Of a DNA stretch of 64,000 nucleotides, positions 42,652 through 45,548 are shown one piece after another. The notes under the pieces are model-generated. The model saw only the letters and a program-made list of their open reading frames with translations. It was not told the origin of the DNA and did not search any database. The DNA comes from Thalassotalea psychrophila. Its GTDB lineage: Bacteria > Pseudomonadota > Gammaproteobacteria > Enterobacterales > Alteromonadaceae. Within the stretch, counting starts at the first letter, position 1. The number at the start of each line of letters is the position of its first letter. The position numbers and the translations under genes are program-made. The stretch is taken from positions 3,224,001 through 3,288,000 of the forward strand of contig NZ_CP134145.1 in the NCBI RefSeq assembly GCF_031583595.1. The letters run 5' to 3'.

Positions 42652-43530
42652 TTAATTCCAATGTTGCCAAACAACATCTAGGTCATCTGGCACAGATAAA
42701 TTTCGTCCTAGTTCAGTCCAGCGACTAGGAAAGTGAAAATCAGAGCCAACCGAAGCTTTTAATCCATATTGTTTGCACAGCTCAACCGACAATTGCTTTT
42801 GTTGGCTGTTCATTTGTGGTGATGCAACTTCCATAGCATCTCCCTTTGCTTCAACAAAATCAATGATTAACCGGCGAATCCACTTTGTTGATAAATCATA
42901 TTTCATCGGGTGAGCTATTACGCTTTGTCCGCCTGCTTGTTTGATAACATCTATCGCCTGTTCAATACTGCACCATAATGGCTTTACATAAGCACGATTG
43001 CCTTTACCAATATATTTATCAAACGCTTTTTGCATGGTACTGACAATGCCGCGGTTATATAATACCCGAGCAAAATGCGCGCGAGTAATGGTACCGCCTT
43101 GTGCTAATTCTTTTGCATCAGCGTAGCAATTTTCGACACCAGCTTTAGCAAGCTTTTCAGCCATTAATAATGCTCTGGTTTCTCGTGCTTGCTGCTGCTC
43201 GTCAATGAGCTTAAGTAATGCGGGGTTATTTTCATCAACATTTAAACCAACCACATGAATCTCATGATTTTGCCACATGGTTGAAATTTCAATACCGCAA
43301 ATCAACCGAATGTTAAGATTTTTATCTGCAATATGTTGTTTAGCAATATCGAAAGCTGCAATGGTATCGTGATCGGTTATGGCAAATTGGTCAATTTGAT
43401 GGTTGCTCGCACGATCTAATAATTCGGCAGGTGTAAGGCGACCGTCGGAGCAATTAGTGTGACTATGAAAGTCTACTCGTATTGATTTGTAACTATTGTC
43501 GGTTATTTCACCGCTAACTATTGACTTCAT
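42652..43530 (-). CDS. rnm: RNase AM (Rnm/YciV), PHP-domain 5'-3' exoribonuclease
   Basis: 292 residues from the ATG at 43530; a longer frame from a TTG at 43587 adds nonconserved residues and would cross the trp promoter region. The PHP metal motifs are FHSHTNCSDG (about 20-29), DHDT, GIEIS and late SDFHFP. Rnm removes 5' nucleotides from 3'-phosphorylated mono/oligonucleotides and trims rRNA 5' ends. It is divergent from the trp leader, as yciV is in E. coli (hence the old name trpH). Confidence 0.9.
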   Translation of the reverse strand: MKSIVSGEITDNSYKSIRVDFHSHTNCSDGRLTPAELLDRASNHQIDQFAITDHDTIAAFDIAKQHIADKNLNIRLICGIEISTMWQNHEIHVVGLNVDENNPALLKLIDEQQQARETRALLMAEKLAKAGVENCYADAKELAQGGTITRAHFARVLYNRGIVSTMQKAFDKYIGKGNRAYVKPLWCSIEQAIDVIKQAGGQSVIAHPMKYDLSTKWIRRLIIDFVEAKGDAMEVASPQMNSQQKQLSVELCKQYGLKASVGSDFHFPSRWTELGRNLSVPDDLDVVWQHWN

Positions 43531-43560
43531 TGACGTTTTGGGTTCTTCTAGGCATATACG
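43530..43560 (+). promoter_or_regulatory. Possible trp operon promoter
   Basis: TTGACG (43530-43535), a 19-bp spacer and TATACG (43555-43560) would start transcription near 43567, about 45 nt before the trpL start. An inverted repeat ACCAA-CTAAA-TTGGT (43588-43602) lies in the leader. No good TrpR operator consensus is visible. Confidence 0.4.
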
Positions 43561-43611
43561 TGCTCGTAATGATGATTTTACGTGCAAACCAACTAAATTG
43601 GTACTTATAAA

Positions 43612-43677
43612 ATGATATTACAACAAGCAGAGCAATTAACCGGTTTAAATATTTGGTGGTGGCATAACCTTACATAG
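43612..43677 (+). CDS. trpL: trp leader peptide (first leader)
   Basis: 21 codons with three consecutive Trp codons at positions 15-17 (43654-43662), followed by four codons and TAG. The peptide reads MILQQAEQLTGLNIWWWHNLT. The Shine-Dalgarno is poor. The Trp triplet sits directly before the 1:2 hairpin of the attenuator, so ribosome stalling here would favour the antiterminator. Confidence 0.9.
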   Translation: MILQQAEQLTGLNIWWWHNLT

Positions 43678-43739
43678 TGGGTTGTGAGCTTTGCTGTAGG
43701 CAAAATTTTAAAAACCCGCTTTCAAAGGCGGGTTTTTTC
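43663..43739 (+). promoter_or_regulatory. trp transcription attenuator
   Basis: The pause hairpin 1:2 is CATAACC (43663-43669) with GGTTGTG (43680-43686). The antiterminator 2:3 is GTGGGTT (43677-43683) with AACCCGC (43713-43719). The terminator 3:4 is AACCCGC with GCGGGTT (43728-43734), followed by six T. The three are mutually exclusive in the classical way. Confidence 0.9.
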
Positions 43740-43806
43740 GTTTTATTCGTTTAGAATATTTCATATTACTAAGAATCACTTAAACTAAAGAGAGAATAGG
43801 CATAAA

Positions 43807-43869
43807 ATGTTAATTAATAACGTTAAAACATGGTTTATCTGGTGGCTTCAGCCCCTTTACGCCGGATGA
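43807..43869 (+). CDS. Second Trp-rich leader ORF between attenuator and trpE
   Basis: 20 codons: MLINNVKTWFIWWLQPLYAG, then TGA. Trp codons are at positions 9, 12 and 13. An AGAGAGAATAGG purine-rich stretch lies before the ATG, a better ribosome site than that of trpL. It is 68 nt after the attenuator T run and 45 nt before trpE. Trp is 15% of its codons. No intrinsic terminator follows, so it is not a duplicated transcription attenuator. Confidence 0.7.
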   Translation: MLINNVKTWFIWWLQPLYAG

Positions 43870-43916
43870 CAAAAATAATCCCATTGGGAAAACAAATTAC
43901 ACAAAGGTAAACCATG
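43829..43916 (+). promoter_or_regulatory. Predicted mRNA hairpin sequestering the trpE ribosome site
   Basis: CATGGTTTATCT (43829-43840, within the second leader ORF and covering its first Trp codon) pairs with AGGTAAACCATG (43905-43916) over 12 positions, one of them G-U. The 3' arm contains the trpE Shine-Dalgarno AAAGG (43903-43907) and the ATG at 43914. A competing small stem is TCTGG (43838-43842) with CCGGA (43862-43866). Confidence 0.6.
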
Positions 43917-45548
43917 AATAACACAGTTCAAAATCAATCACAGCTAGGCTTAGTGAACAGCACGATAGTTAATGCTCAGTATCAAGCTGATCCACTAATG
44001 CTATATCGCAGCTTAACCGCAGATAAAAGTAATACATTATTATTAGAATCTGCTGAAATATCAGATAAACGAGCTCTCAAAAGTTTATTACTTATTGATT
44101 CAGCGGTGAAAATCGTCTGCAATGGCAGTAATGTCTCCATCAACGCAACATCTCTTAATGGCCAAGCCATTATTGCTTATTTAAAGCAGCAATTTACGCA
44201 AGCTAGTTACCAAAATAGTGTGACTATTAATAACGCTTCAATTGATTGTTTAGATATTAATTTTTCGACAAGCATTACCGAGCAAGATGAGCTGTCACGC
44301 TTATTAGTTGATAATCCAATGCAAGTGCTTAGAGAATTGCAAGCAATTGATTGTCAGCAACAGCATCCATTTTCAGTATTTGTTGGCGGCGCTTTCGCCT
44401 TTGATTTAATTTGTATCAGCGAACAGTTGCCCAAGGTGAAAGACAGTAAAAATACTTGCCCTGATTATGTATATTATTTGGCTGAAACCTTAATTATTAT
44501 TGATCATCAGCAGCAAACCACAGAGTTACTTGGCAACGTTTTTAGCGGTTCTCAGCAAAGTGCTTGTCAGCAGAAAATTGAACAACGCCTAGAACAATTA
44601 AAACATATTTGTAAAACACCTATGACTAGCCAAGCCATAGATCTTAAACAAGCAACGCCAACTCAAGTAGAAGTTAATATTTCAGATCAACAATTTTGCC
44701 AACAAGTTGAAGATTTGAAAGAGCACATCAGAGCCGGTGATATTTTCCAGGTTGTACCTTCTCGTACATTCTCATTAAGCTGTAGTGATTCATTAAATGC
44801 ATATCAAGCACTGAAACAAACAAACCCTAGTCCTTACATGTTTTTCTTAAAAGATGATGATTTTGCCCTATTTGGAGCATCGCCAGAGTCTGCATTAAAG
44901 TTTACTGCAGAGAATAGACAGGTAGAGATTTACCCAATAGCAGGAACCCGTCCAAGAGGGTTTACCCCTGAAGGTAAATATTCTGCCGATTTAGATGGCC
45001 GCATTGAACTTGAACTTAGAAATGATGAAAAAGAAAAAGCCGAACATTTGATGCTGGTTGATCTCGCTCGTAATGACGTTGCCAGGGTTTCAAAAGGCGG
45101 TACTCGTCATGTTGCTGAATTACTTAAAGTAGACCGATACTCCCACGTAATGCATTTAGTATCACGAGTAATAGGCACTTTATCTGAAAAATTAGATGCG
45201 CTGCATGCGTATCAAGCGTGTATGAATATGGGCACCCTGTCAGGTGCGCCTAAAGTAAAAGCAACCGAATTAATTCGCACGGTAGAAGGCGAACGCCGTG
45301 GTAGTTATGGTGGCGCTGTTGGTTATATTAACGGTGGCGGTGATATGGATTCTTGTATTGTTATTCGCTCTGCTTTTGTAAAAAACAACATAGCTTACGT
45401 ACAAGCCGGTGCGGGGGTTGTTTATGACTCAGACCCACAAGCTGAAGCCGATGAGACCAGACAAAAAGCACAAGCGGTAATTAAAGCTGTACAAATTGCC
45501 AATGCTCACTCAAAAGTTATTACAAACACGACTGAGGGAGCAAAATAA
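43914..45548 (+). CDS. trpE: Anthranilate synthase component I
   Basis: 544 residues. It has the chorismate-utilising domain with the catalytic region GDIFQVVPSRTFSL (about 275), PSPYMFFLKDDDFALFGASPES, IAGTRPRG (about 342), DLARNDVARV and CMNMGTLSGAPKVKATE. The N-terminal feedback site is LLLESAEI (Trp-binding Ser region, about 40-48), so Trp inhibition is expected. It converts chorismate and glutamine-derived ammonia to anthranilate with TrpG. The stop overlaps the trpG start (TAATG). AAGG precedes the ATG, but lies in the predicted hairpin. Confidence 0.97.
   Translation: MNNTVQNQSQLGLVNSTIVNAQYQADPLMLYRSLTADKSNTLLLESAEISDKRALKSLLLIDSAVKIVCNGSNVSINATSLNGQAIIAYLKQQFTQASYQNSVTINNASIDCLDINFSTSITEQDELSRLLVDNPMQVLRELQAIDCQQQHPFSVFVGGAFAFDLICISEQLPKVKDSKNTCPDYVYYLAETLIIIDHQQQTTELLGNVFSGSQQSACQQKIEQRLEQLKHICKTPMTSQAIDLKQATPTQVEVNISDQQFCQQVEDLKEHIRAGDIFQVVPSRTFSLSCSDSLNAYQALKQTNPSPYMFFLKDDDFALFGASPESALKFTAENRQVEIYPIAGTRPRGFTPEGKYSADLDGRIELELRNDEKEKAEHLMLVDLARNDVARVSKGGTRHVAELLKVDRYSHVMHLVSRVIGTLSEKLDALHAYQACMNMGTLSGAPKVKATELIRTVEGERRGSYGGAVGYINGGGDMDSCIVIRSAFVKNNIAYVQAGAGVVYDSDPQAEADETRQKAQAVIKAVQIANAHSKVITNTTEGAK

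Follow-up and report, generated by a model that had tools for sequence, protein, structure and literature searches.

The analysed window, a stretch of 64,000 nucleotides of Thalassotalea psychrophila counted here from its first letter, contains a trp operon in which two short ORFs with Trp codons precede trpE. The features of this leader region are listed in order:

43612..43677, plus strand: trpL1, the first leader peptide (MILQQAEQLTGLNIWWWHNLT-stop) of what looks like an ordinary transcription attenuator; an ORF with three consecutive Trp codons
43710..43737, plus strand: intrinsic terminator of the first attenuator, a 12-pair stem and T run
43798..43800, plus strand: AGG, probable Shine-Dalgarno (SD) sequence of uORF2, read from the sequence
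43807..43869, plus strand: uORF2, the conserved second leader peptide (MLINNVKTWFIWWLQPLYAG-stop), from the ORF and family comparison
43829..43840, plus strand: predicted 5' arm of the trpE lock helix, including Trp codon 9, from RNA folding (pair probability 0.74-0.99)
43867..43870, plus strand: UGAC stop tetranucleotide of uORF2, as in 73 of 78 distinct loci
43903..43907, plus strand: AAAGG, SD sequence of trpE, read from the sequence
43905..43916, plus strand: predicted 3' arm of the lock helix, from the end of the trpE SD through AUG, from RNA folding and a cross-gene pairing test
43914..45548, plus strand: trpE, anthranilate synthase component I (NCBIfam NF010079, TIGR00565)

The trpE product scores 771 bits against NF010079 (cut-off 471) and 690 bits against TIGR00565 (cut-off 494.65); the divergent neighbour of the operon, on the minus strand at 42652-43587, encodes an RNase RNM/PHP-domain protein (NF047791). 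The operon's first leader looks like an ordinary ribosome-mediated trp attenuator, and the Rfam model Trp_leader (RF00513) matches at trpL1 (43651-43741) with 27.1 bits, below its gathering score of 41. Behind it lies uORF2, which has 20 codons, with Trp at codons 9, 12 and 13 (43831-43833, 43840-43842 and 43843-43845) and UGA at 43867-43869, just as a sequence-only reading of this DNA had described it. That reading had also stated that no terminator follows uORF2, and up to 43960 this is borne out: the sole terminator-like site in a scan of 43500-43960 is that of the first attenuator (43710-43737), with none between 43869 and 43960. Among the 16 Rfam matches listed, none on the plus strand lies over uORF2, and three weak minus-strand matches overlap its first bases. 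A promoter scan of 43500-43960 returned no sites and says little, since the operon's own expected promoter was missed too. Purine-rich stretches precede uORF2 in the listed relatives, as judged by eye.

RNA folding of the window reproduces the complementarity that had been noticed between uORF2 and the trpE SD and ATG. The uORF2 sequence CAUGGUUUAUCU (43829-43840) pairs with AGGUAAACCAUG (43905-43916) over 12 positions, one of them U-G (43838/43907), and this lock helix dominates the predicted fold, with pair probabilities of 0.74-0.99 and a duplex energy of -14.3 kcal/mol. The fold of 43800-43930 has a z of -3.05, and 2 of 200 shuffled sequences fold equally well. The pairing is above chance: none of 103 other SD-bearing initiation regions (a control list of 104 from which the trpE start itself was excluded) pairs as well with the Trp-codon zone of uORF2 as the trpE start does. 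Synonymous recodings of the uORF2 peptide pair equally well in 223 of 5000 cases (4.5%), because Trp-Phe-Ile itself encodes a stretch resembling an anti-(SD/ACCAUG) sequence. In the model the cost of opening the trpE start is 7.6 kcal/mol in the free RNA and falls to 5.0-5.2 kcal/mol with a ribosome on W9, W12 or W13, each of which has a modelled footprint covering the 5' arm (43829-43840); a ribosome at the uORF2 stop codon raises it to 10.4 kcal/mol. None of 40 spacer shuffles matched this accessibility change. The trpE SD and start are thus predicted to be sequestered by uORF2 sequence in the off state, as in translational attenuators of the erm/cat type, in which a stalled leader ribosome frees the next SD, and the modelled anatomy of the window fits translational attenuation.

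A TrpE match at E <= 1e-120 was obtained in all 15 genomes of the window's genus and in 290 of the 295 genomes of the family sample. Within the genus uORF2 is intact in 7 of 15 genomes, altered in one (L015), a relic in one (L012) and not seen in six, calls that were made partly by eye; the sequence-only reading expected the ORF in close relatives, and it is there in about half of them. With no intact copy in 8 of 15 genus genomes, uORF2 is dispensable. The altered copy in L015 (G004) retains VKTWFIWW, but its conserved C-terminus is gone and its frame continues beyond the trpE start region. In L007, L008 and L009 (G012, G010 and G013), which lack uORF2, an unrelated Trp-free short ORF occupies its place with a stop adjoining the trpE start, by eye; the TrpE match of L008 (G010) is reported with two internal stop codons.

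Across the family sample, the N-side pattern VKxWFIWW has a match in 44 of 295 genomes and the C-side pattern WWxxPxYAG-stop in 82, or in 81 genomes from 18 of 52 genera once a chance match (G210) is removed. The C-side set provides the 78 distinct uORF2 loci used below; its pattern fixes WW, P, Y, A and G, and the loci are related, so that counts over them are not independent. Three rows were left out: L002 (a second chorismate-binding paralogue), L104 (an unused 100-base placeholder) and L119 (the chance match in G210). The names on records with uORF2 include Thalassotalea, Colwellia, Thalassomonas and Pseudocolwellia, and one is titled Endozoicomonas; the 38 pattern stretches from named genomes comprise 25 copies of uORF2 and 13 unrelated sequences. 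In the window's genus, matching loci identify two members as records named Thalassotalea, and other records of that name (e.g. L075, L078) sit in other genera of the sample and have a DAHP synthase arrangement described below. Outside the family the exact C-terminal pattern was not found in a class sample of 274 genomes, where both matches belong to family members. A looser pattern matched 12 of 394 genomes of an order sample, ten of them in the family; the two in another family both fall inside a 423-aa ORF. Diverged forms of uORF2 elsewhere could escape exact patterns applied to samples.

The modelled fall in opening cost recurs in five further genomes of the genus (L003, L004, L005, L006 and L013; n=15), and in L016 the cost falls weakly, from 4.0 to about 3 kcal/mol. 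Five of these seven genus loci go beyond their spacer shuffles at z > 2, with L005 and L016 below that level, and in all except L016 the modelled lock is looser with a ribosome on the Trp codons and tighter with one at the stop. The helix arms are kept while the spacer between them diverges: in an alignment of the seven sequences 96.4% of 84 cells are paired, against 28.6-44.0% when the partners are slid by 1-3 columns. The helix occurs on both sides of the deepest split in the genus (L013 and L016, the latter weakly, against L001, L003, L004, L005 and L006), for which retention from the ancestor is the simplest reading, short of proof. Covariation, which had been suggested as a check on the helix, did not appear, with no compensatory double change at any of the 12 pairs in the seven genus sequences and one pair broken in three of the seven. 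In L005 and L006 (G007 and G008) the target of the lock is not trpE but a short ORF (MRNITNFTLQSL...) extending into the trpE start, and the start of that ORF was taken as the downstream start at these two loci; a similar short ORF follows the uORF2 region of L012, by eye.

Beyond the genus the lock does not generalize. Over the 78 loci the mean opening costs are 4.2 kcal/mol in free RNA, 3.2-3.4 with a ribosome on the Trp codons and 3.7 with one at the stop, and the accessibility change exceeds that of spacer shuffles (z > 2) at 11 loci, five of them in the window's genus. When the pairing of each Trp-codon zone with its own start was ranked among control starts, the mean rank was 0.50, which is chance, and the rank was 0.05 or less at 8 of 78 loci. 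A CC precedes the AUG at 30 of 78 target starts, against 5 of 104 control starts. In L154 and L155, of another genus, the 3' partner of the Trp-codon zone is a different arm that runs through the AUG, and in the g8 lineage the zone pairs with CCCAUGAG; the spacer-shuffle test held the AUG and the bases after it fixed and is therefore conservative for that lineage. Opening energies, spacer shuffles and cross-gene ranking agree in placing the RNA lock in some lineages only, and it was rejected as a family-wide mechanism. The model in which a stalled ribosome frees trpE, put forward from the window's sequence, is thus plausible for the window's genus without being the conserved core, and a conserved leader-peptide device seems to use the hairpin as its output in particular lineages only.

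Judged from the sequences compared, the conserved core is not the RNA lock but a leader peptide that much of Colwelliaceae possesses, together with its C-terminus and UGAC stop. The conserved motif is WFxWWL[QL]P[IL]YAG-stop. Each of the two search patterns fixes part of the peptide and so provides a test of the remainder. Among the 44 genomes with the N-side pattern, 43 also have L[QL]P[IL]YAG-stop, which is absent from that pattern, the exception being G004; at the 78 C-side loci Trp is found at -12 in 78, Phe at -11 in 77 and Ile, Leu or Met at -10 in 78. The uORF2 Trp codons, whose conservation had been named as a check, are invariant at 78 of 78 loci, two of the three being fixed by the search pattern. 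Selection acts on the peptide: in the seven codons after WFIWW, pS is 0.59 and pN 0.09 over 36 distinct loci from the N-side pattern, an estimate that keeps the exception (L033) and leaves out the 13 unrelated matches in named genomes, and without the exception the values are 0.58 and 0.07 (35 loci). Across the estimates from both patterns, pN/pS is about 0.06-0.16 at C-terminal codons against 0.44-0.52 N-terminally; among loci preselected by the C-side pattern, the last five codons alone have a pN of 0.035 (40 loci). The N-terminal codons, with a pN of 0.24-0.32, encode a basic, variable segment that precedes the hydrophobic, Trp-rich C-terminus. In contrast, the first leader is held at the third bases of its His and Asn codons, which hardly vary (CAT at 71 and AAC at 68 of 74 loci), as expected for a constraint from RNA pairing; trpL1 was found for 74 of the 78 loci with a search that fixed CAY AAY, so that these counts test third bases only.

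The stop tetranucleotide of uORF2 is conserved, being UGAC at 73 of 78 loci, with UAAA at two, UAAC at two and UAGC at one, so that every UGA precedes C. Against this, UGAC ends 5 and UGA in any context 30 of 153 long ORFs on 25 family contigs, and UGAC ends 1 of 44 ORFs in the window, these backgrounds being counted over frames from stop to stop, 200 codons or longer, rather than over annotated genes. UGAC is among the weakest stop signals in E. coli, where it is the stop of the RF2 frameshift site, and its strength there was reportedly the subject of work by Poole, Brown and Tate in 1995. UGA followed by C is also given as a weaker terminator in mammalian assays in an excerpt of PMC9841425. 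Read-through or frameshifting at UGA into the next gene is not supported as a conserved output, the zero frame being open at 25 and the shifted frames at 29 and 11 of 75 loci (a set that excludes three loci spaced by more than 60 nt).

At 70 of 78 loci the next start comes 28-39 nt past the uORF2 stop; the window, at 44 nt, and its two nearest relatives, at 45 nt, are outside this common range. Downstream starts were picked by rule, which for 11 short stretches means the first ATG 18-60 nt past the stop, unverified. By tblastn the first gene after uORF2 is trpE at 42 of 78 loci and DAHP synthase (identified by NF006421, 463.8 bits, cut-off 335) at 25; the remaining 11 stretches are too short for this and were assigned from their TrpE coordinates. 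At the 25 loci (e.g. L041, L028 and L078) DAHP synthase stands between uORF2 and trpE, so that the operon opens with the first step of the aromatic pathway, and a TrpE-like ORF follows it in all eight such loci read. From footprint sizes, a ribosome at the stop codon would, at a spacing near 33 nt, abut rather than overlap the initiating 30S subunit, and simple blocking is therefore not obvious.

Of the explanations considered for these observations, a chance ORF with chance complementarity is a negligible prospect: the 4.5% of recodings that pair as well (223/5000) would suit it, but conservation in 18 genera, peptide-level selection and the UGAC bias stand against it, and for the ORF the comparison has already refuted it. 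Translational attenuation like that of erm and cat and nothing else, in which only stalling at Trp codons matters, the peptide is incidental and Trp-Phe-Ile is kept as the code for an anti-SD arm, draws on the lock, which six of the 15 genus genomes show clearly and a seventh weakly, on the finding that 0 of 103 control regions pair as well with uORF2 and on the Trp codons invariant at 78 of 78 loci, two of three of them pattern-fixed. We nevertheless consider it unlikely, since pairing is at chance over the 78 loci (mean rank 0.50), the helix has no compensatory pairs, and a C-terminal LxPxYAG with UGAC is kept while synonymous change is free; as a whole account, Trp-codon stalling leaves the peptide-level conservation, the UGAC stop and the spacing unexplained.

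The same peptide-level conservation could be read as that of a trans-acting functional microprotein, with a Trp enzyme or the membrane as possible sites of action, that rides as the operon's first cistron. A purine-rich stretch upstream would agree with this, as would the basic, variable N-terminus and the hydrophobic, Trp-rich C-terminus that follows it, but a trans-acting product needs neither UGAC (73/78) nor a start 28-39 nt further on (70/78), and uORF2 stays the first cistron whether trpE or DAHP synthase comes next, which makes such a product quite improbable. Less probable again, to the point of being very unlikely, is a leader that loads ribosomes or promotes reinitiation and so raises trpE translation without sensing Trp. 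Three genus members without uORF2 do have another short ORF ending beside the trpE start (by eye), and reinitiation at the leader peptides of many bacteria is proposed in an excerpt of PMC4833913; the peak given in that excerpt, however, is at 10-16 bp and not at 28-39, and loading needs neither three invariant Trp codons nor a conserved peptide.

We propose, with somewhat better than even confidence, that uORF2 encodes a conserved leader peptide and acts in cis to set how readily ribosomes initiate on the first trp structural gene, adding, behind the transcription attenuator, a second Trp control at the level of translation. Comparison of the loci shows what is kept in Colwelliaceae, namely the last 12 residues, the UGAC and, mostly, the 28-39 nt spacing, and the best reading is that the termination step of uORF2 matters to regulation. 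In the mechanism that we infer, the position of the ribosome on uORF2 would convey the Trp signal, release at UGAC would be slow, and translation of trpE would depend on that position. Under Trp starvation the ribosome would wait on codons 9-13, and with ample Trp it would reach UGAC, where termination would be delayed by the conserved nascent peptide together with a weak context for release factor 2. For the window's genus, a ribosome stationed on the Trp codons would cover the 5' arm and open the trpE SD and AUG, while one at or past the stop would leave that arm free and trpE locked, so that the starvation stall (on) and the stop pause (off) would act on the lock in the same direction. In other genera, steric hindrance and loss of reinitiation are the candidate reading steps.

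A bolder proposal, possible but rather doubtful, is that uORF2 is a new nascent-chain sensor unrelated to TnaC, in which the WFxWWL[QL]P[IL]YAG segment, while inside the exit tunnel, would sense free Trp or an aromatic relative, hold the ribosome at the weak UGAC and lower translation of the first trp gene. A single 20-codon ORF would then read both charged tRNA-Trp, through a stall at the Trp codons (on), and free Trp, through arrest at UGAC (off). The repressor TrpR (PF01371) was not detected above the cut-off in any of the 295 family genomes, with 17 weak matches below it and the E. coli and B. subtilis controls detected. If the translational reading of uORF2 is correct, many members of a family in which TrpR goes undetected would regulate Trp synthesis through a stack of two leader peptides, of which the second works at the level of translation, and a conserved 12-residue Trp-rich peptide with a near-fixed UGAC would be a small, easily tested candidate for another arrest peptide related to Trp, alongside TnaC. 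The conserved peptide, set against the changing RNA lock, suggests how one leader peptide may be rewired to different outputs.

The sequence-only reading knew of no description of this arrangement. Among the open-licence papers listed by a literature search, none appears from its title or abstract start to describe a second leader ORF before trpE in these bacteria, but the logic has precedents in B. subtilis anti-TRAP and TRAP/trpE and in TnaC, which are precedents for that logic and not relatives. Like the trp attenuator of RF00513, uORF2 is a leader with Trp codons in which ribosome position would be the signal, but no terminator follows it; it differs from the erm/cat attenuators in its proposed trigger, which is a shortage of aminoacyl-tRNA or the nascent peptide and not an antibiotic. 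In B. subtilis, excerpts of PMC11255114 and PMC12288461 describe a TRAP-dependent hairpin that locks the trpE SD on read-through transcripts. This resembles the uORF2 lock as a second, translational layer on the trpE SD, with the difference that the signal is read by the TRAP protein and not by a ribosome on a leader ORF. E. coli TnaC is a Trp-responsive arrest peptide with critical residues W12, D16, I19 and P24 and a UGA stop (excerpts of PMC8429421 and PMC10941005). Both TnaC and uORF2 are short Trp-containing leaders ending at UGA, read by RF2, and the conserved Trp stands 12 residues before the last in TnaC and 11 in uORF2; counted from that Trp, uORF2 has no counterparts of D16, I19 and P24, with Trp rather than Asp four residues on and Gly rather than Pro at the end. 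TnaC controls Rho termination of a catabolic operon, whereas for uORF2 we propose translation control of a biosynthetic one, by a putative Trp sensor. The leader of B. subtilis rtpA (anti-TRAP) has Trp codons, and its peptide was reportedly described by Chen and Yanofsky in 2003/2004. In this system, as an excerpt of PMC11255114 describes it, ribosomes stall on the leader ORF in a tRNA-dependent manner and so set translation of the next gene, and this layer is stacked behind a tRNA-Trp sensor that acts on transcription. The likeness to uORF2 lies in control of the next gene's translation by a leader ORF, stacked behind a transcription-level layer; the first layer of rtpA is a T box and its target a regulator gene, whereas that of uORF2 is a ribosome-mediated attenuator, its target is trpE or DAHP synthase, and its peptide and UGAC are conserved.
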